Under the pieces are notes generated by a model. That model made no database searches and had not been told where the DNA came from. It was given only the letters and a program-made list of their open reading frames with translations. Source: Planctomycetota bacterium (GTDB lineage: Bacteria; Planctomycetota; Planctomycetia; Pirellulales; Pirellulaceae). Taken from it: a stretch of 14,793 nucleotides of DNA. How positions within the stretch are numbered: the stretch's first letter is position 1; every line of letters begins with the position of its first letter. Of this stretch, positions 1-12,213 are shown piece after piece. Made by a program: the position numbers and the translations under genes. The DNA is taken from NCBI GenBank assembly GCA_026692885.1, contig JAPLNJ010001062.1, positions 1 to 14,793 on the forward strand. Reading direction: 5' to 3'.

Positions 1-82
1 GGCGCAGGACGGGGGACCGGTCCACGCCAACCGAGCGGCGCCATTCTAGACTAGTTCCCTCCCCTTTACAATTTGGCGTATC

Positions 83-221
83 GGCCTTGATCATAACGTT
101 GCAAACTGCGGTCAGTGCTGGCGTCGTAGCCGAAGTCGTGAGACTTCGGTTTTGGCCGCTTCGCCCCCAAGTCTCACGACTTCGGCTACTGCTAGCGTTT
201 CGCGAGGTTACGATCAAGGCC
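83..221. mobile_element. MITE-like element, copy 1, with 8-bp target duplication
   Basis: A 139-base element bounded by ggccttgatc (83-92) and gatcaaggcc (212-221). The terminal inverted repeats extend imperfectly for about 23 bases. It is flanked by a perfect 8-base direct repeat, ggcgtatc, at 75-82 and 222-229, which is the expected footprint of transposition. The interior is a second palindrome with perfect 21-base arms at 126-146 and 169-189. There is no transposase, so it would need one supplied in trans. The right-hand duplication includes two bases of the mutL stop codon, so mutL is left intact. A related copy lies at 6422-6571. Confidence 0.8.
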
Positions 222-227
222 GGCGTA

Positions 228-2165
228 TCACATCCGCTTGAATCGCTTGTCGAGTTCTTCCCGGGTGAACACCAAGGCCGTGGGGCGGCCGTGGGGACAA
301 TGGTGCGTGTCCTGGAACAAGTGCCGCTGCTCCAGCAGCGCGGTGACTTCCTCGGGTGTGAGCCGATCGCCCGCCTTGATCGCCGCCTTGCACGAGATCA
401 TGTGCAACATTTCGTCCAGCAAGTCCCGTTTCTGCGGCGGTTGGTCGCTGGTCAACAACTGGGCGATCAACTGCCGCAGCACCTCCGTCGGGTTGAAATT
501 GGCCAGCATCGCGGGATAGCTGGAGACCAGGACTGTGTCGCCACCAAACGGCTCGATCTCGATGCCCAATTGCGTCAGCGTCTGGCGGGCCTCCAACGCG
601 GCCGCCGCCTCGGCGGGCGTCAAGGAGACGGGTTCGGGCACCAACAGCCGCTGCCGCTCCAGGTGCCCGGACAAGACCTTTTCCCGCAACTGCTCGTACA
701 GAATCCGCTCGTGCAGGGCGTGCTGATCGATGATCACCACACCTGCCTCGTTCTCCGTGATCAAGTAGCGATTGTGGACTTGCAGGCCCCCACGACCTCC
801 GACAGACGGCGGCAGGGACGTCTGAGGACCGGTCACACTGTCCGGGACCACCGGCTGCGACGTTGGCGGAGCGCCGGGGTCGGCGTGGTGGAGTGCCGCT
901 GCTGCGAGTCCCGCACCACCACCTTCCGGAAACGGCCGGAACTCGGGGACGCGGCGGTCGCCGAACCCATAATTCAGGCCCAGTGTGGCCTGTCGCGCCG
1001 GCATTTCCGGCTGACCTGCAGCTGCGGCAGGCGGAGCCGCGCGGCCGGTCGCCAACTGGCCTGTGGCCCATTGGACCAGTTCTTGCCGATGCCGATCGGC
1101 CTGCGTTGGGTCGTGTGCCCCCGCCGGGGTGTCCTCGACCGGCCGCGGCAACGCGGTCCCGACGTGCGGCGTCAGATCGGTGGTGAGGAATTTCTTGCGC
1201 AGCGCGCCCAGCACCTGGCTGTAAATGCGACCGCCGTCCTGGAAGCGGACTTCCAGCTTCGTGGGATGCACGTTCACGTCGACGGAATTTGCCGGGATCT
1301 CCAGACGCAGAAAGACAGCTGGGTAACGGCCGGTCAACAACAGGCCGCGATAAGCCTCGGCCAACGCATGCTGCAACGCCCGATCGCGGATATGCCGCCC
1401 GTTCAGGAACAGGTACTGCATGCGGTTGTCGCCGCGGCTGAACGTAGGGTTCACGGCCAGGCCGTTGAGCCGGATCTGGCCGTCGTCGCTTTCGACCGGA
1501 ATCAGCGCCTCGCCGATCTCCGTGCCGAACAGCATCGTGATCCGCTCCCGCCAGTTGTCGACCGGTGGCAGATCATGGATCGGCTGATCGTTGTGCCGCA
1601 GCGTGAAGTGGACTCGTGGGTAGGCCAATGCGATTCGGGTGAAGGCTTCGCTGATGTGTCCCATTTCGGTCGGCGTGGTGCGCAGGAACTTCCGCCGCAC
1701 GGGCATGTTGCAGAACAATTGCCGGACTTCGACCAGTGTCCCCACGGGGCAGCCGCAAGGCACCACCGGTCCCAGCTGCCCGCCGAGCACTTCCAGCTCA
1801 GCCCCAGCCGACTGGTCGGCCGTACGGCTCCGCAGTCGCAGATGGCTGACTTCCGCGATCGAGGCCAGGGCTTCCCCTCGGAAACCGAGCGTGCGCACGT
1901 CGAACAGATCATCCGCGTCGCGAATCTTGCTGGTCGCATGGCTGGCCACGGCCAGCGGTAACTGATCCGCGGAGATGCCGCAGCCGTTGTCGACCACGCG
2001 AATCAACTCGGTGCCACCCTTCTCCACGGCCACATCGATTCGCGTGCAGCCGGCGTCGACCGCATTCTCCAGCAACTCCTTGACGACGCTGGCCGGCCGC
2101 TCGATCACTTCGCCGGCGGCGATCTTGTTGATCACGCTGGGTGTCAGTTGTTTGATCTCAGGCAT
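228..2165 (-). CDS. mutL: DNA mismatch repair protein MutL (endonuclease type)
   Basis: Mismatch-repair ATPase that links mismatch recognition by MutS to strand incision and removal. The 645 residues fit the MutL family. The N-terminal GHKL ATPase is clear: KELLEN with E30 and N34, DNGCG at 59-63, GFRGEAL at 94-100, and the NMPVRRKFL motif at 153-161. A low-complexity Ala/Pro/Gly linker follows (about 350-455). The C-terminal domain carries DQHALHERILYE from D480, which matches the DQHA(X)2E(X)4E nuclease motif, SCKAAIKAG from about 591, and CPHGRPT at 623-629. QRLLVP at 505-510 fits a beta-clamp-binding motif. These are marks of a MutL with its own nicking activity, as in organisms without MutH. 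The ATG at 2165 gives the family's usual N-terminus; no strong ribosome binding site is seen. It follows the toxin gene by 74 bases. No mutS is in the window. Confidence 0.97.
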   Translation of the reverse strand: MPEIKQLTPSVINKIAAGEVIERPASVVKELLENAVDAGCTRIDVAVEKGGTELIRVVDNGCGISADQLPLAVASHATSKIRDADDLFDVRTLGFRGEALASIAEVSHLRLRSRTADQSAGAELEVLGGQLGPVVPCGCPVGTLVEVRQLFCNMPVRRKFLRTTPTEMGHISEAFTRIALAYPRVHFTLRHNDQPIHDLPPVDNWRERITMLFGTEIGEALIPVESDDGQIRLNGLAVNPTFSRGDNRMQYLFLNGRHIRDRALQHALAEAYRGLLLTGRYPAVFLRLEIPANSVDVNVHPTKLEVRFQDGGRIYSQVLGALRKKFLTTDLTPHVGTALPRPVEDTPAGAHDPTQADRHRQELVQWATGQLATGRAAPPAAAAGQPEMPARQATLGLNYGFGDRRVPEFRPFPEGGGAGLAAAALHHADPGAPPTSQPVVPDSVTGPQTSLPPSVGGRGGLQVHNRYLITENEAGVVIIDQHALHERILYEQLREKVLSGHLERQRLLVPEPVSLTPAEAAAALEARQTLTQLGIEIEPFGGDTVLVSSYPAMLANFNPTEVLRQLIAQLLTSDQPPQKRDLLDEMLHMISCKAAIKAGDRLTPEEVTALLEQRHLFQDTHHCPHGRPTALVFTREELDKRFKRM

Positions 2166-2239
2166 GGAATCCGTTCGCCATCAAGCAGGCCGGCGAGGCC
2201 GGCGTCTGGTCCATCTCGATTAAGATCGGTGTACCGGCT

Positions 2240-2542
2240 CTATCCGGTAATCCTGGGTTCCCGCCGTGCTCCGTGCCAGACCGTCAGTATTTCGACACGC
2301 CGCTCTTCCTCGATCACCCGGTAGAGTATGCGGTACTTCCGGCAAAGCACTTCGCGGATGTCGCGGTGCCGAGAGCGCCGATACACGGCCCCCATGAACG
2401 GATGATTCATAAGCAGGTCGATGCGGGCCACGATTTCGTCGCCGACGCGTTCCGCCGCAACCGGACTGTCTTGCGCAATGTGCGATACAAGATCTTGGAG
2501 GTCCTTCAACGCCGGATCAGTCCAGACTATCTTGCAGACCAT
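2240..2542 (-). CDS. type II toxin, RelE/ParE family
   Basis: A 100-residue basic protein with the RelE/ParE toxin pattern: an N-terminal strand (KIVWTDPALKDLQDLV), a helical hairpin rich in Ala, Glu and Arg (about 20-48), the P-x-MG-x-x-YRR turn near 48-56, then IREVLCRKYRILYRV and VEILTVWHGARR strands. Members of this fold either inhibit DNA gyrase (ParE) or cleave mRNA at the ribosome (RelE); the sequence alone does not decide which. Its ATG lies inside the antitoxin gene, a 16-base overlap that suggests translational coupling, with antitoxin first as is usual. Sequence and context together make the call strong, but activity is inferred. Confidence 0.88.
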   Translation of the reverse strand: MVCKIVWTDPALKDLQDLVSHIAQDSPVAAERVGDEIVARIDLLMNHPFMGAVYRRSRHRDIREVLCRKYRILYRVIEEERRVEILTVWHGARREPRITG

Positions 2543-2712
2543 GAGGTAACCATCCGCCTGACTTCCTCATGCGGTGTGACGCGCCCGGCTTCCGCGGCCT
2601 CCTCGCCCTTACGGATGGCCGCGAGCAGAGCAACCTCCTCGCTGATCTCGTCCAGAGTCAACGTCTCGGGCAGACTGCGCACGATCTCAATGACGAGTTG
2701 CTTATTGGTCAT
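2527..2712 (-). CDS. antitoxin partner of the RelE/ParE toxin
   Basis: A 61-residue acidic, mostly helical protein. The N-terminus (about 1-25) is hydrophobic and acidic (IVRSLPETLTLDEISEEVAL). The C-terminal half (RKGEEAAEAGRVTPHEEVRRM) resembles the tails of short antitoxins paired with ParE-type toxins, where the tail wraps around the toxin. I cannot place it firmly in a named antitoxin family and see no clear DNA-binding fold. Its start codon overlaps the response-regulator stop in an ATGA arrangement, and its 3' end overlaps the toxin start by 16 bases, so all three genes look co-translated. The call rests on size, order, overlap and the toxin next door. Confidence 0.75.
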   Translation of the reverse strand: MTNKQLVIEIVRSLPETLTLDEISEEVALLAAIRKGEEAAEAGRVTPHEEVRRMVTSWSAR

Positions 2713-4133
2713 AAGTTAAACTTCTCCAGCTTGCGATACAGGGTCCGCGCCCCGATGCCCAGGATGTTGGCTGTTTCTTCGCGGTTGCCGTTGGTCAGCT
2801 TCAAGGTCTGTTCAATCGCCCAGCGTTCATACTCGGTGAACGGCTTACCGACCAAGCTCATCGGGCCTTCCAAGACCGCCACTTGGCGTTCGTCCACGGC
2901 GGCCAACTCCGAAGGCAGGTCATCGACATCCAAGAGACCGTCCATATCAAGTACAACCATCGTCTCCACGGCGTTCCGCAGGTGCCGCACGTTGCCCGGC
3001 CAGTCGTAGGCGAACAGGCGGCGGCTGACGGCCGGCGAGATGTTTTTGACCGACTTGTTGTGCCGTTTGGCGAAGAGCTTGCGGAAATGGTCTACCAACG
3101 GCAGGATGTCCTCCCGCCGCTCGCGCAGACTCGGCAGTTCGATCGTGATGACCTTGATGCGGTAGTACAGGTCGCGGCGAAATTCGCCGCTTTCGACCGC
3201 GTCTTCCAGGCTGCGGTTCGTCGCGGAGACGAGGCGCACGTTGACCGGAATGGGCTTGTTGTCACCCACGCGTGTCACCTGGTGCTCTTCGACGACCCGC
3301 AGCAGCTTGACCTGTGTGGACATCGGCATGTCGCCGACTTCGTCCAGGAACAGCGTTCCGCCGTTGGCATACTCAAATGCGCCCACCCGATCCGTGACGG
3401 CGTCGGTGAAGGCGCCTTTGACGTGGCCGAACAACTCGCTCTCCACCAAATTCTCGGCCACCGCGCGGGCGTTCAGCGGCACCATGCGTTTGTTCTTGCG
3501 CGACGGGCTATTCTGATGGATCGCCTGAGCAATCAGTTCCTTGCCGGTGCCGCTTTCGCCGGTGATCAAGACGGTGGCGTCGGTGGGCGCGATCCGCTTG
3601 ATGCGATCGATCACCGACTTCATCTTGTCACTGGTGTAGATGATGCCCTCGAAGCCGAACCGATCGTCCAGCCGCTGGGTCAACTCCAGGTTTTGTTGGG
3701 TCAGTTCCCGATTTTGCTGCCGGAGTCGGACCTCGTCCACGGCGTGTTCAAACACCACCCGCAGCCGATCGGCCGAGATGGGCTTCTCCAGAAAGTTAAA
3801 CGCACCATGCTGCATGGCCTCGACCGCCTTCGGCACGGAAGCGTGGCCCGTGACCATGATGACTTGGCTTTCGGGCAGCACTTCCTTGGCTCGCGCCAGC
3901 AGTTGCATCCCATCGACTTCGTTCATGACCAGGTCGGTGATCACGATCTCGTAGGTGTTCTGTTGGACCTGCCGCAAGCCCTCCGGGCCCGATGTGGCCA
4001 CGTCGCAGGGGAAACCGATGCGAACCAGAATCTCCGCCATGGTATGGGCGTGGGCACGGTCGTTGTCGACGATCAACGTGCGGATCGCCGCGGCGGGGGA
4101 GGTTTCGGAGTCAGAAGCTTTGCTTACCGTCAT
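2709..4133 (-). CDS. sigma-54-dependent NtrC-family response regulator
   Basis: A 474-residue two-component regulator that activates sigma-54 promoters. The N-terminal receiver domain (about 17-130) has acidic residues D23 and D25, phospho-acceptor D67 in ITDLVM, T95 and K117. A Gln-rich coiled linker covers about 134-155. The central AAA+ domain (about 160-395) has Walker A GESGTGKE at 192-199, Walker B LFLDE at 261-265, and FRRDLYYRI near 318-326 with likely arginine fingers. The sigma-54 contact loop reads GAFTDA (240-245) instead of GAFTGA. A Fis-type helix-turn-helix ends the protein (about 445-471). The frame stays open to 4406, but those extra residues are translated repeat DNA; MTVSKASD at 4133 is the sensible start. 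No histidine kinase is adjacent, so the input signal is unknown. The stop overlaps the antitoxin start. Confidence 0.93.
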   Translation of the reverse strand: MTVSKASDSETSPAAAIRTLIVDNDRAHAHTMAEILVRIGFPCDVATSGPEGLRQVQQNTYEIVITDLVMNEVDGMQLLARAKEVLPESQVIMVTGHASVPKAVEAMQHGAFNFLEKPISADRLRVVFEHAVDEVRLRQQNRELTQQNLELTQRLDDRFGFEGIIYTSDKMKSVIDRIKRIAPTDATVLITGESGTGKELIAQAIHQNSPSRKNKRMVPLNARAVAENLVESELFGHVKGAFTDAVTDRVGAFEYANGGTLFLDEVGDMPMSTQVKLLRVVEEHQVTRVGDNKPIPVNVRLVSATNRSLEDAVESGEFRRDLYYRIKVITIELPSLRERREDILPLVDHFRKLFAKRHNKSVKNISPAVSRRLFAYDWPGNVRHLRNAVETMVVLDMDGLLDVDDLPSELAAVDERQVAVLEGPMSLVGKPFTEYERWAIEQTLKLTNGNREETANILGIGARTLYRKLEKFNL

Positions 4134-4197
4134 GCCGCTGATGATACAACACAAACGACGTTTCGGGTACTGGGCTGCGGAGTCTGCATGGAAAGCC

Positions 4198-4635
4198 ACT
4201 GCGGTGAACAACTTGCGGTGGTTCAAGTCATCGAGGCTTCTCGTTCCGACGCTCTGCGTCGGAACGCAAGTCGCGGACGCTCTGCGTCCTTGGGCAAACG
4301 ACGCGGAGCGTCGAAATACTGGCGTTCCCACGCGGAGAGCCTGTGAAAGAATCGTAGGGTGGGCTGTGCCCACCCCTGTAAAGGTGTTAATCTCGTTTGA
4401 GTTCACGCTTTAGCGTGTCTTGTGCGGCGGGCATCGCCCGCTTGGCACGCTAAAGCGTGAACTCCAACAAGGCCCGACGCTACGGTTTCCCCAGAGAATC
4501 GCACATTTACAGGGGTGGGTGGGCTGTGCCCACCACCACTGCTTGTGCTTGGTGGGCACAGCCCACCCTACATTTTGGGCAACCATTGTCAGCTGATTTG
4601 ATTCTTTCACAGCCGCGGAGCATGGGAACGAGAGA
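4198..4635 (+). repeat. palindromic repeat copy A, split by an insertion
   Basis: A repeat made of several short hairpins, including gttccgacgctctgcgtcgg from about 4242 and related gacgctctgcgtc units. It matches copy B (9975-10128) in inverted orientation along its length, including the non-palindromic start actgcggtgaac versus actgctgtgaac. The copy runs 4198-4337, is interrupted by the element at 4338-4614, and resumes at 4621-4635 (catgggaacgagaga), which matches the end of copy B. The whole gene-free stretch 4134-4725 is this repeat, its insertion, and a short promoter region. In-frame translation through it produces the false N-terminal extension of the response regulator. Confidence 0.85.
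4338..4614. mobile_element. 277-base non-autonomous insertion with nested hairpins
   Basis: The ends carry a perfect 13-base inverted repeat, ctgtgaaagaatc at 4341-4353 and its complement at 4600-4612. A direct repeat of the target, cgcggag, lies at 4331-4337 and 4614-4620; the last base overlaps the element end, so 6 or 7 bases are duplicated. Removing the insert restores the palindrome as seen uninterrupted in copy B. Inside are perfect arms at 4354-4374 and 4551-4571, a further hairpin at 4518-4534 with 4551-4567, a pair at 4373-4382 and 4506-4515, and a 19-base pair at 4399-4417 and 4446-4464 containing cacgctaaagcgtg. There is no coding capacity for a transposase. Confidence 0.75.
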
Positions 4636-4649
4636 CACCTTTTCCACGC

Positions 4650-4678
4650 TTGAATGGTCCGCTTCTGCGGCTTATAAA
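4650..4678 (+). promoter_or_regulatory. candidate sigma-70-type promoter for the DUF4058 gene
   Basis: TTGAAT at 4650-4655 and TATAAA at 4673-4678 are separated by exactly 17 bases, matching the housekeeping consensus at 4/6 and 5/6 positions. The predicted transcript would start near 4685, about 40 bases before the ATG at 4726. The -35 box lies just outside the end of repeat copy A. This is pattern matching only. Confidence 0.5.
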
Positions 4679-4725
4679 CAGTAGCGTGTCGATGTCACTC
4701 GCCTCGAACTAAGTCAGGCTTCGTC

Positions 4726-5523
4726 ATGCAATGCCCTTTTCCTGGCATGGACCCGTACATCGAAATGTCTGGCCTGTGGGATGATTTTCACGCGGACATA
4801 ATTGCCGAAATCAAACGCGCGATCGCCCCCCAGTTACCTCCCCACTACGCGGTGCGCACCGGCGAACGGTACTATGTGGACGTTTGCTCGCCGACCGAAA
4901 TTGGAGCGGTGGACGAGACGCTCGTCCAATCCGACGCCAGCGTCGTGGCCGTCGCAGACCGTTCGAGGTCAGGCGGCGGCGCCGCGGTGTTGGAAGCTCC
5001 CGTGGAAACCGAAATCGCAGTCGAATTGGAATTCCGGGAGAAGTTTCTCGATATTCGCGAGATGCGTTCCGGACACATCGTCACGACCATCGAAGTCTTG
5101 TCGCCTTCCAATAAACGCGGCGGGCAGGGACGGCACCAATACCTGCTGAAACGCAACGCCTGCCTGCTCGGCGAAAGGAACTTCGTGGAGATTGACCTGC
5201 TGCGCGGCGGAACTCGCATGCCACTGGCGATCAACTATCCGGCGGGGGCCTACTTCGTGGCGTTGTTTCGGATGAACCGCCCCGGCAAATGCGGCCTGTG
5301 GCCGATCGGCTTGCGCGACCGGTTGCCGATCATCCCGGTTCCGCTCTTGCCCGGCGAGCATGACCTGCAACTCGATTTGGCGCCGCTGGTCAACTCGATC
5401 TATGTCGTCTCGAACTACGGACTCTCGATCAATTACGCCCTGCCGCTCTCGCCGAGACTAAGAGACGCAGAAGACGCGGCTTGGTTGGAGGCAACGCTTC
5501 GCTCGGCGGGATGCCTCACGTAG
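4726..5523 (+). CDS. DUF4058 family protein
   Basis: A 265-residue protein beginning MQCPFPGMDPYIE, the signature opening of DUF4058, a family of unknown function common in planctomycetes and cyanobacteria. Conserved stretches include ETEIAVELEFREKFLDIRE (about 94-112), IEVLSPSNK (122-130) and RNFVEIDLLRGG (151-162). The spacing of SDASVV (69-74), E123 in EVLSPS, and EIDLL near 155-159 recalls the Uma2 branch of the PD-(D/E)XK nuclease fold; that is my inference, not an established assignment. There is no signal peptide or membrane segment. The start is fixed by the family N-terminus. It converges on the TIM-barrel gene with only 7 bases between stop codons and no evident terminator. Confidence 0.9.
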   Translation: MQCPFPGMDPYIEMSGLWDDFHADIIAEIKRAIAPQLPPHYAVRTGERYYVDVCSPTEIGAVDETLVQSDASVVAVADRSRSGGGAAVLEAPVETEIAVELEFREKFLDIREMRSGHIVTTIEVLSPSNKRGGQGRHQYLLKRNACLLGERNFVEIDLLRGGTRMPLAINYPAGAYFVALFRMNRPGKCGLWPIGLRDRLPIIPVPLLPGEHDLQLDLAPLVNSIYVVSNYGLSINYALPLSPRLRDAEDAAWLEATLRSAGCLT

Positions 5524-5530
5524 GCTGCCG

Positions 5531-6367
5531 CTACCGCGGGAACTTGAGGTTGGTGAATTCCCGGACGCGGTTGGCGATGGCCGGCTCGACCGGCAGACGC
5601 TCCATGCTGCTGGCGCCGTAAAAGCCCACGATGCCTTGGGTGTGGTCCAGGATGTACTGGGCATCTTCCGGCTCGGCGATCGGGCCACCGTGGCACAGGA
5701 CCAGGATGTCCGGCCGGACCCGCTTGGCGGCATCGCACATCTCCTGGACCGACCGGGCTGATTCCTCCAGCGTCCGCGCGGTGCTCGCACCGATCGTGCC
5801 TTTGGTGGTCAGGCCCATGTGGGGAATCAGGATGTCCGCTCCCGCCTCGGCCATCGCCGCGGCTTCGTCGGGATTGAAGCAGTAGGGCGTCGTCAACAGG
5901 CCCATTTCGTGGGCCGTGCGGATCAGGTCCACTTCCAGGCCATACCCCATACCGGTTTCTTCCAGATTCACCCGCATCTTGCCGTCGAACAGGCCGACGG
6001 TGGGGAAGTTCTGGACGCCCGAAAAGCCGGCGGCGTCCACGTCACGCAGGAACAACTTCATCACGCGGAACGGATCGGTGCCGCAGACGCCCGCCAGCAC
6101 GGGCGTATGGAGGACCACCGGAATCACCTCCCGCGCCATGTCCATCACAATTGCGTTGGCATCGCCGTAGGGCAACAGTCCCGATAACGAGCCGCGGCCG
6201 GCCATCCGGAACCGGCCGGAGTTGTAGATCACCAGCAGGTCAATGCCGCCCGCCTCGGACATCTTGGCACTGAGTCCGGTGCCGGCGCCGCCGCCGACGA
6301 TCGCTCGGCCGGAGGCAACCTTTTGGCGTAACTTGGCGAGGACGTCATTGCGGGAAAACAGGGCCAT
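5531..6367 (-). CDS. PEP-hydrolase-like TIM-barrel protein (Tm-1 C-terminal half homologue)
   Basis: A 278-residue protein of the phosphoenolpyruvate hydrolase-like TIM-barrel family. Recognisable stretches are [21 protein letters not shown] (about 26-45), [24 protein letters not shown] (about 48-71), the NFPTVG turn near 120, [17 protein letters not shown] (about 175-191) and [14 protein letters not shown] (about 220-233). The fold suggests an enzyme acting on a small oxo-acid, but its real substrate is unknown. The ATG at 6367 has GGAG nine bases upstream. It lies downstream of, and on the same strand as, the Tm-1-like gene, in the order in which the two parts are fused in plant Tm-1. The 264-base gap between them is filled by repeats. 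Confidence 0.9.
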
Positions 6368-6394
6368 GATGGAAACTCCGTGGATTGGGGGTGG

Positions 6395-6630
6395 GTAGGT
6401 CAGGCTTTCCAGCCTGACGTCGGCCTTGATCGTAATGTTGTCAGGGCTAGCAACGCAGCGGGTGGCTGGTGGCTGAGCCTAAGCGAAGCCCCAGTCCACT
6501 GTTGCTGCGGCTTCGCCTAGGCTCAGCCACCAGCCACCCTGCTAGCATTTTGCAGGGTTACGATCAAGGCCCTGACGTCGTTAGGCCGGCCTTCGTTCTG
6601 TCAGACGTCAGGCTGGAAAGCCTGACCTAC
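6395..6630. repeat. palindromic repeat interrupted by a MITE
   Basis: Perfect 27-base inverted arms at 6395-6421 and 6604-6630, each itself a hairpin (caggctttccagcctg). The right arm ends one base from the stop codon of the Tm-1-like gene (6632-6634). Without the inserted element (6422-6571) and one target duplication, it would be a roughly 78-base hairpin with a loop containing aggccggcct. Read from the minus strand it forms just after the Tm-1-like gene and could act as a transcript-end or mRNA-stability hairpin; that role is inferred. Confidence 0.8.
6422..6571. mobile_element. MITE-like element, copy 2, with 8-bp target duplication
   Basis: A 150-base element with ends ggccttgatcgtaa (6422-6435) and ttacgatcaaggcc (6558-6571). 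A perfect 8-base duplication, ctgacgtc, flanks it at 6414-6421 and 6572-6579. The last 30 bases closely match copy 1 (83-221), including tgctagc and ggttacgatcaaggcc. The core is a different palindrome, with arms at 6460-6490 and 6509-6539 matching at 30 of 31 positions. It has no coding capacity. It sits inside the larger palindrome at 6395-6630, between two genes that probably share a transcript. Confidence 0.82.
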
Positions 6631-6631
6631 G

Positions 6632-7834
6632 TTATTTCTCCAAGAACTCGATCAATTTCCTGGCGGCGGCTTCGGCAAACTCCGGATCGTTGATGTGGCA
6701 GTCCAGCTCCCGGAGCTCGATCGCGCCGTGCTGCTGCCGGATGCCTGCCAACAGCGCCTGCCTCGCCTGCGGGTCGTCAAACGGTTGACCTTCGCAGTCG
6801 ATGGCGGACACGCCTCGTAACGGCACCAGCAACGCCGCAGGTCCGGTCGAGGCCGCCACCTTACGGCCGATTTCGCGGCCCAGTTCGGCATTCTCCTGGA
6901 CCGTGGTCCGCATCAAGGTCACCGTGGGGTTGTGCTGGTAGAACTGGCGGCTGCGGAACTTATCGGGTACGGTCTCCGGGGGGCCGAAGTTGACCATATC
7001 AATCGCACCGACCGACACGACTTGGGGTACGCCGCACCGGGCTGCCGCCGTCAGCCGGTTCGGGCCGGCGGTCAGGATGCCACCGACTAGTTCGTCCGCC
7101 AGTTCCGTGGTGGTGATGTCCAGCACGCCGGCGATCAAGCCATCGGCGATCAAGGACTCCATCGCCTGCCCGCCGCTACCCGTGGCGTGGAACACCAGGA
7201 CTTCGTAGCCAGCCTGTTCCAACACTTCGCGGGCGCGCAGCACACAAGCCGTGGTCACGCCGAACATCGTCGCGGCCACGACCGGCCGATCCTCGGCCGC
7301 GTCAGCGGCTTGGTGCAGAACCATGCCGGCCATGGCACTGGCGGCGTTGGCCAGAATCCGCCGACTGATCCGGTTCAGGCCAGCGATATCCACGACCGAA
7401 TTCAGCATCAGGATGTCTTTGTTGCCGACCCACGGGTGGACTTGACCCGAGGCCAGTGTGCTGACCATGACCTTCGGCACGCCGATCGGCAGCGTGCGCA
7501 TCGCGGTCGTGCCGATTGTGGTCCCGGCTGAACCGCCGAGGGCGAGGACACCGTCCAATTCGCCGCGTGCAAAAGCGGCCTGCACCAACTGGGCCGCTCC
7601 GGCCGCCGCCTGCGTTACCGCCGCACCGCGATCGCGATGCTCGAGCAGCGCCGCGAGCGTGGTCCCGGCCGCCGCGAACACTTGCTGGCGGGTCACCTCA
7701 CCCGGGAAAGCGGGCTGGCCGATGCAGCCAGTATCGACCACTGTCACCGGGACGCCCAAGGCCCGCAGGCGATCTCGCACGAACGCCGCTTCAGGGCCTT
7801 TGGTGTCCAACGTCGTCAGCAAATAGACGCTCAT
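6632..7834 (-). CDS. Tm-1-like ATP-binding protein (UPF0261)
   Basis: A 400-residue protein of the UPF0261/Tm-1-like family. The opening MSVYLLTTLDTKGPEAAFVR is typical. The glycine-rich stretch ALGGSAGTTIGTTAMRTLP (about 98-116), STLASGQVHPWVGNKDI (about 125-141), VVDIAGLNRIS (147-157) and HATGSGGQAMESLI near 205-220 fit the two-lobed ATP-binding fold. In tomato Tm-1 the equivalent domain binds ATP and inhibits a viral replication protein; the bacterial role is unknown. The ATG at 7834 has GAGG five bases upstream. The next gene on the strand is the TIM-barrel partner. The 275 bases upstream (7835-8109) hold no gene, only weak short inverted repeats such as 7861-7866 with 7885-7890. Confidence 0.92.
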   Translation of the reverse strand: MSVYLLTTLDTKGPEAAFVRDRLRALGVPVTVVDTGCIGQPAFPGEVTRQQVFAAAGTTLAALLEHRDRGAAVTQAAAGAAQLVQAAFARGELDGVLALGGSAGTTIGTTAMRTLPIGVPKVMVSTLASGQVHPWVGNKDILMLNSVVDIAGLNRISRRILANAASAMAGMVLHQAADAAEDRPVVAATMFGVTTACVLRAREVLEQAGYEVLVFHATGSGGQAMESLIADGLIAGVLDITTTELADELVGGILTAGPNRLTAAARCGVPQVVSVGAIDMVNFGPPETVPDKFRSRQFYQHNPTVTLMRTTVQENAELGREIGRKVAASTGPAALLVPLRGVSAIDCEGQPFDDPQARQALLAGIRQQHGAIELRELDCHINDPEFAEAAARKLIEFLEK

Positions 7835-9958: not shown

Positions 9959-9970
9959 GGCCTTGATCGG
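9959..9970 (+). repeat. solitary MITE terminus abutting repeat copy B
   Basis: ggccttgatcgg matches the end of the elements at 83-221 and 6422-6571 over its first 11 bases. It stands directly before repeat copy B. No matching gatcaaggcc end was found downstream, so this is either a remnant or an element whose other end has been lost. Confidence 0.4.
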
Positions 9971-9974
9971 AAGT

Positions 9975-10128
9975 TCTCTCGTTCCCACGCTCCGCGTGGG
10001 AACGCAAGTGTTTTGACGCTCCGCGTCGTCTACCCAAGGACGCAGAGCGTCCGTGGCTTGCGTTCCGACGCAGAGCGTCGGATCGAGAAAATCGAGGACC
10101 TGTACAACCGCAAGATGTTCACAGCAGT
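9975..10128 (-). repeat. palindromic repeat copy B (uninterrupted)
   Basis: The reverse-complement counterpart of copy A (4198-4337 plus 4621-4635). Shared parts include gttcccacgctccgcgtggg from 9981, the gacgctccgcgtc and gacgcagagcgtc hairpins, gttccgacgcagagcgtcgg near 10062-10081, and the non-palindromic tail up to gttcacagcagt (10117-10128). Sequence identity is high but not complete, so the duplication is not recent. It lies between cpaB and cpaC. Its minus-strand translation gives a spurious small ORF that should not be annotated as a gene. Confidence 0.85.
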
Positions 10129-12054: not shown

Positions 12055-12213
12055 GGCCTTGATCGAAACGCTTCGAGTTGGTAACAGTCCGGGTGGCGGG
12101 CGGCCGAACCTAACTGCATAGCGCCACTTAGTTGCTCCCCATGATCTGTAACTGTCTGCGTAGAGACACGTTATGGCACTTCCAAGCTTGCATCGGTGGT
12201 TCCGATCAATGCC
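12055..12213. repeat. decayed relative of the ggccttgatc element
   Basis: ggccttgatcgaaacg begins at 12055. It is followed near 12089-12111 by gggtggcgggcggccgaacc, which resembles the core arm of the element at 6422-6571. A degenerate right end, ggttccgatcaatgcc, lies at 12198-12213. No target duplication survives. It accounts for much of the gene-free stretch 11947-12306; the remainder shows only the dyad at 12025-12038. Confidence 0.35.

Follow-up and report, generated by a model that had tools for sequence, protein, structure and literature searches.

Mini-elements with common ends and varied REP-type cores as probable satellites of an insertion sequence family encoding DUF6399 proteins

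Precedents are known for repetitive extragenic palindromes (REPs) enclosed in larger elements. In Coxiella burnetii, QMITE2 is a 150-190 bp miniature inverted-repeat transposable element (MITE) with terminal inverted repeats (TIRs), unique direct repeats of 7-11 nt and a GTAG-type REP as its interior; small REP-like versions of it also occur alone, and its authors read QMITE2 as a MITE (PMC5896051; partial text). REP dimers inside longer palindromes have been reported from A. variabilis, H. neapolitanus and T. roseum (PMC3733652; partial text). Here we describe two mini-elements (elements 1 and 2) in a 14,793-nt stretch of DNA from a Planctomycetota bacterium of the Pirellulaceae (contig JAPLNJ010001062.1 of assembly GCA_026692885.1; the whole stretch is called the window), whose similar outer parts, here called shells, enclose different palindromic cores. 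Our analysis suggests, with a probability of roughly 0.87, that they are MITEs, and thus non-autonomous satellites, of an insertion sequence (IS) family with a DUF6399 transposase, and that REP-type palindromes serve as their interiors.

The shells resemble QMITE2 in being MITEs with TIRs, direct repeats and a REP core, but QMITE2, compared here by its description, has one core type, and the available part of the source names no parent IS for it (PMC5896051). Likewise, the palindromes of A. variabilis, H. neapolitanus and T. roseum hold REP dimers within a host palindrome, but each has a single REP family, and the accessible text mentions neither target duplications nor a parent element (PMC3733652). 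Ordinary prokaryotic MITEs share with the shells their shortness, inverted ends, target duplications and a parent IS acting in trans, whereas the shells combine one end type with many unrelated palindromes that are repeats themselves (PMC10969869; partial text). REPINs and other REPs mobilised by REP-associated tyrosine transposases (RAYTs) are similar to the shell cargo, being REP-type units, several of them GTAG-tagged, in inverted pairs; unlike the shells, which have a putative DDE-type carrier, TIRs and 8-9 bp duplications, REPINs rely on an HUH enzyme without such duplications (PMC2817692; partial text). A paper on Thiomargarita MITEs names no matching family in the part available (PMC4853749), and among the matches listed for a literature search with the letters of the family ends, titles and abstracts were unrelated. 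Our literature search found no mention of DUF6399 (PF19936) and no description of one shell type with interchangeable REP cores. QMITE2 and the REP dimers in palindromes are thus known precedents; a single shell with many cores and a DUF6399 parent was not found in the literature searched.

Both window elements are short, have inverted ends and are flanked by target duplications, as MITEs are, and neither contains a transposase gene of its own; one mechanically called open reading frame begins in element 1 and reads through. An earlier note on this DNA had claimed identical ends, perfect 8-bp duplications, a conserved right-end region and unrelated palindromic cores for the stretches at 83-221 and 6422-6571, and these observations were borne out: the duplications agree at 8/8 positions at both elements, the last 33 bp are identical at 29/33 positions and the first 20 bp at 17/20, and the longest word common to both cores is 8 nt, a length reached by 9% of shuffles. 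The palindrome arms that it described are both present; at 24 nt (96%) and 35 nt (94%) they came out slightly longer and less perfect than the 21 and 31 bases stated there. With at most one mismatch, GGCCTTGATC occurs 13 times in the window versus 1.2 expected, a number reached by 0 of 200 shuffles, and a 19-nt end pattern with at most two mismatches gave 5 matches versus 0.01 expected. The core of element 1 resembles a GTAG-type REP, in that the tag is followed by a hairpin and the units form an inverted pair: one unit consists of GTAG and a perfect 8-bp stem (CCGAAGTC/GACTTCGG) with the loop GTGA, and the second pairs at 7/8 stem positions. The core of element 2 begins with GGGTGG and so does not qualify as a REP by the GTAG tag. 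No further copy of the element 1 core was found within the window, and an Rfam scan of the window at gathering scores gave no match.

To follow these ends beyond the window, a genome collection was scanned with the two 10-bp ends alone, spaced 101-131 bases apart, which gave at least 120 stretches. The listed stretches and the window contained 128 end pairs, of which 123 were tested for duplications and 5 were excluded as too close to a contig end. Among the matches listed, a perfect duplication of 8 or 9 bp flanks 49 of the 123 pairs, compared with 0.0 when the right flank was slid, so the pairing of these ends with duplications is not peculiar to the window. Inspection of the flanks indicated that the 9-bp class is genuine and stands alongside the 8-bp class; many of the listed pairs without a duplication resemble chance matches in coding DNA. 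The duplicated copies listed come from Planctomycetota, Chromatiaceae, Magnetococcales and sulfate reducers. Desulfobacter latus was considered and set aside: in 20 regions its short duplicated pairs were all of one core type, and a long pair (2.46 kb, 7/8) was judged a chance match. A plasmid collection searched with window element 1 gave no match, and two Chromatiaceae shells matched in the same collection only plasmids of T. syntrophicum.

The genome closest to the window is a Pirellulaceae metagenome-assembled genome (MAG; G003), whose counterpart of the protein encoded at 6632-7834 is 76% identical, the closest among matches in 180 of 248 genomes of its class. Right ends of the window type are rare in the order of G003 (2/146 genomes). 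The syntenic gene pair of another genome, G157, has no such ends and no element 2, at a divergence too great to fix the exact empty site.

For clustering of the cores we took 105 elements shorter than 200 bp whose duplication reached at least 7/8 or 8/9, excluding pairs recognised by their ends only; 103 were left after removal of identical ones. The interiors of these 103 distinct duplicated elements fell into 30 sequence clusters, 16 with at least two members, where 30 is an upper figure since the clustering threshold may split related REPs. The two plasmids of T. syntrophicum contain seven core clusters, one represented by a doubtful 91-bp element; the window has two clusters, and so does each of six other genomes. 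Many cores appear by eye to be REP-like pairs of tagged palindromes, for instance GTAGTCAGG, GTAGGGTGGAC, GTAGGTTGGG, GTAGGGGC, GTGGGGCACG and the CGTC-type CCCGCCTTCGCGGGAATGACG. In G003 the same end type surrounds two kinds of core, GTGGGGCACG and, in a single copy (8/9 duplicated), TCTCGTTCCCAAGC; palindromes like the TCTCGTTCCCAAGC core are also found at 4239 and 9977 of the window. These data support the proposal of the earlier note that a non-autonomous family hosts varied palindromes, and the many different cores, several of them within one genome, mean that the copies do not all carry one homologous core. Weighing against its simplest form, a single homologous core is kept throughout certain subfamilies, among them the 124-bp elements of T. 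intracellulare. This constancy, together with the short foldback form of all shells, could mean that cores are not acquired at all but go back to a single ancestral palindrome at the centre, which diverged in place. We regard such divergence as very improbable, given that the cores of one genome belong to different clusters, that the two window cores agree only at the level of chance words, and that the same palindromes stand free outside shells, contrary to what it supposes.

The cargo palindromes also exist free of shells. Over the whole of the two T. syntrophicum plasmids there are 67 copies of GGTCCGC, 38 of them lacking any family end that faces inward within 250 bp, and 34 copies of GAGTCCAAGG, 9 of them without such an end, and a GTAG dimer like the core of element 1 stands free in G003 (L152:678-728). 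Two observations by eye concern the boundary of shell and cargo. At two loci of KLAP164 (L008:1826-1946 and L059:7698-7818), a AACCCGAAGCG palindrome overlaps the terminal repeat through a common GTAAC, so that one inner end region appears to have been replaced there. In addition, a REP pair like GTAGTCAGG lies inside a different inverted-end element (CCTATCG...CGATAGG; L026:1790-1930), hinting that other shell families also carry REPs.

The full-length IS with the same ends that the earlier note had thought worth seeking was found. It has GGCCTTGATC ends, a length of about 1.8-1.95 kb and one gene, for a protein with the domain DUF6399 (PF19936), and it duplicates 8 or 9 bp. On the complete plasmid pTs417, a 1,916-bp element with the family ends and the duplication GTCCAACC has as its sole annotated gene a 'DUF6399 domain-containing protein', in which Pfam places DUF6399 C-terminally, after an N-terminal helix-turn-helix match below the threshold. 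Of 30 host genomes or records, 19 gave a DUF6399 match (17 above the cut-off), compared with 0 of 14 controls. In pTs417 and in 8 of 20 draft regions the gene has a family end on either side; many other regions stop within the gene. Of the nine flanked copies, three have perfect duplications, one has 7/8 and five have none. Three genomes had contigs of 5.4-6.8 Mb; of 20 DUF6399 loci taken from them, 14 have perfect duplications, and the other six comprise one with 6/8, one with none and four without an end pair. The 1,916-bp copies duplicate 8 bp and 2/3 of the 1,917-bp copies 9 bp. One genome holds two subtypes of the IS, with 9-bp duplications at L309 and L310 and 8-bp duplications at L299-L307. 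In one order, represented by 119 genomes, 15 genomes have end pairs and 19 have DUF6399, with 12 having both (p 2e-9, an optimistic value given the relatedness of the genomes), and IS partners with the same ends were seen in other genomes as well, for example at L181, L216 and L214. Since in G003 a remnant of a DUF6399 gene is followed by a right end matching that of element 1 at 28/32 positions, the conserved TGCTAGC region most likely corresponds to the right end of the IS.

Residues D147, D201 and E474 are invariant in 34/34 DUF6399 proteins, as are D221 and H224, and the first three may form a catalytic acidic triad. The predicted fold is of the RNase H-like/DDE type, with the invariant Glu within the C-terminal DUF6399 domain, and is similar to that of the ISCth4 transposase of the IS256 family. 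PF00872 (IS256) is absent among the best 25 of 30 families for 34 DUF6399 proteins. Membership of the ISL3 family was not supported, as PF01610 stayed below its cut-off, with 1 of 10 scanned proteins matching at E 0.01 (19.6 bits versus 23) and 2 of 34 at E 0.1, the best E belonging to the protein that scored 19.6 bits. On this sequence evidence the DUF6399 protein is the likely transposase of the element family, and the IS family appears to be unnamed.

Transposases of the IS1, IS256 and IS903 types make 8-9 bp duplications, and both this length and the GG ends of the elements would loosely fit one of them as the mobilising enzyme. Among 16 host genomes, however, PF03400 occurs in 5 and PF00872 in 3, with no inward-facing family end pair at 8 loci, and it is the DUF6399 IS copies that bear the same ends with duplications. 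PF13737 matched nowhere, its controls being equally silent, and so carries no weight here; the Pfam searches otherwise yielded no fitting parent. We therefore give mobilisation by another transposase almost no weight.

If the elements are satellites of the DUF6399 IS, the transposase would read only the terminal 20-32 bp, so that two suitable inverted ends could carry any interior. REP-type palindromes, which are also free in such genomes, would repeatedly have become that interior and then multiplied within the shell. A composite event in T. syntrophicum bears on how this may happen. At L302 the IS sits inside a REP-bearing shell, with its duplication within the shell, which measures 178 bp without the IS. 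At L298 the same IS is found together with 42 bp up to the right end of that shell, identical over 1,958 bp and flanked by a perfect duplication of its own. This is most simply explained if the transposase paired the left end of the IS with the right end of the shell. Because IS and shell end moved as a unit, the shell ends seem to work with the DUF6399 transposase; we infer that they are live substrates and that ends of different copies can combine. By the same route the transposase could join ends that belong to two different copies, adjacent or nested, and move the DNA between them. The composite move argues for such pairing of an IS end with a shell end, and as the way in which cargo is taken up we give end-pairing an even chance.

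The types of the ends, classified on about 10 positions per end, are also informative. In T. intracellulare all 17 classified shells have one left-type and one right-type end (17/17), as expected if shells were simple internal deletions of the IS and their cores leftover IS sequence. REP shells, in contrast, mostly have two right-type ends (L. purpurea 8/8; T. syntrophicum 12/21, the others being 5 half-undecided, 2 left-left and 2 left-right), which makes internal deletion improbable as an account of them, though the rule is not clean: Thiorhodococcus breaks it with right-right ends in 4/4 shells, two of them with non-REP cores. Two right-type ends fit both end-pairing of inverted copies around a REP and insertion of a REP into a foldback shell.

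In the latter case a RAYT (a Y1 HUH transposase) would insert REP dimers into the loop of the palindromic shell and the DUF6399 transposase would then spread the shell. Y1 transposase genes are present in 12/12 host genomes tested, the cores lie roughly mid-shell, element 1 retains both GTAG tags in its core, and REP dimers sit within other palindromes in A. variabilis and H. neapolitanus (PMC3733652). Yet a core-like REP was found at only 1 of 30 Y1 loci (L152), the GTAG tag is missing from several cores (element 2 and the CGTC type), and CGTC REPs have been reported without a dedicated transposase (PMC3733652). Empty shells, moreover, are almost lacking: 2.19 Mb of sequence, counting overlapping loci, gave one convincing example of 80 bp, and a further 80-bp element has a 7/8 duplication. 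Insertion by a RAYT is thus a plausible but less favoured route, and since Y1 genes occur in all hosts tested while a core-like REP accompanies just one locus, we rank end-pairing slightly ahead of it; template switching or other routes take up the small remainder. No RAYT gene was seen inside a shell in the 30 Y1 loci. A separate observation in Thiorhodococcus mannitoliphagus is a shell-sized end pair exactly between two Y1 gene fragments, interrupting the gene (L165:1701-1832).

Taken more broadly, the DUF6399 IS family might run modular mini-transposons across phyla, pairing ends and capturing, swapping and multiplying REPs, probably made by RAYTs, as cargo; we hold this tentatively, at somewhat less than even odds. 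If true, one parasite would be hitchhiking on another, and REP-type palindromes without a transposase of their own would have a possible route of spread. The analysis also suggests a likely function for a protein family of 'unknown function', with search totals of 2,507 and 3,383 homologues that possibly overlap, and it points to an IS family with ready natural substrates. In T. syntrophicum the natural composite opens end-pairing to a direct test in a laboratory strain.

Table 1. Mini-elements, target duplications and associated palindromes in the window.
Feature	Positions	Strand	Remarks
Target duplication GGCGTATC, left copy	75..82	.	8/8 versus right copy
Element 1, 139-bp mini-element, GGCCTTGATC/GATCAAGGCC ends	83..221	+	same end family in relatives
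Element 1 core, inverted GTAG-tagged hairpin pair	126..189 (64 bp)	+	
Element 1 right end, TGCTAGC...GATCAAGGCC	190..221	+	28/32 identity to right end after DUF6399 remnant in G003
Target duplication GGCGTATC, right copy	222..229	.	
GTAG-tagged palindrome, left member of pair hosting element 2 insertion	6395..6421	+	27/27 complementary to 6604-6630
Target duplication CTGACGTC, left copy	6414..6421	.	also tail of palindrome 6395-6421
Element 2, 150-bp mini-element, ends as element 1	6422..6571	+	
Element 2 core, long palindrome, 35-nt arms 94% complementary, no GTAG tag	6460..6539 (80 bp)	+	
Element 2 right end	6540..6571	+	26/32 identity to DUF6399-associated right end in G003
Target duplication CTGACGTC, right copy	6572..6579	.	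perfect, 8/8
GTAG-tagged palindrome, right member of pair hosting element 2	6604..6630	-	
Possible decayed third copy, 141 bp	9959..10099	+	weak: perfect left end, right end with 3 mismatches (by eye), no duplication

The core of the possible third copy is a TCTCGTTCCCACGC palindrome, of a kind found inside an element of G003 (L292:1159-1344). A lone end-like GGCCTTGATCGAAACGCTT at 12055-12100 may be a relic; its 46 nt show 72% complementarity to the right part of element 2. Nested palindromes of the kinds TCTCGTTCCGACGC, GTAGGGTGGGCTGTGCCCACC and CACGCTTTAGCGTG are densely clustered at 4238-4640.

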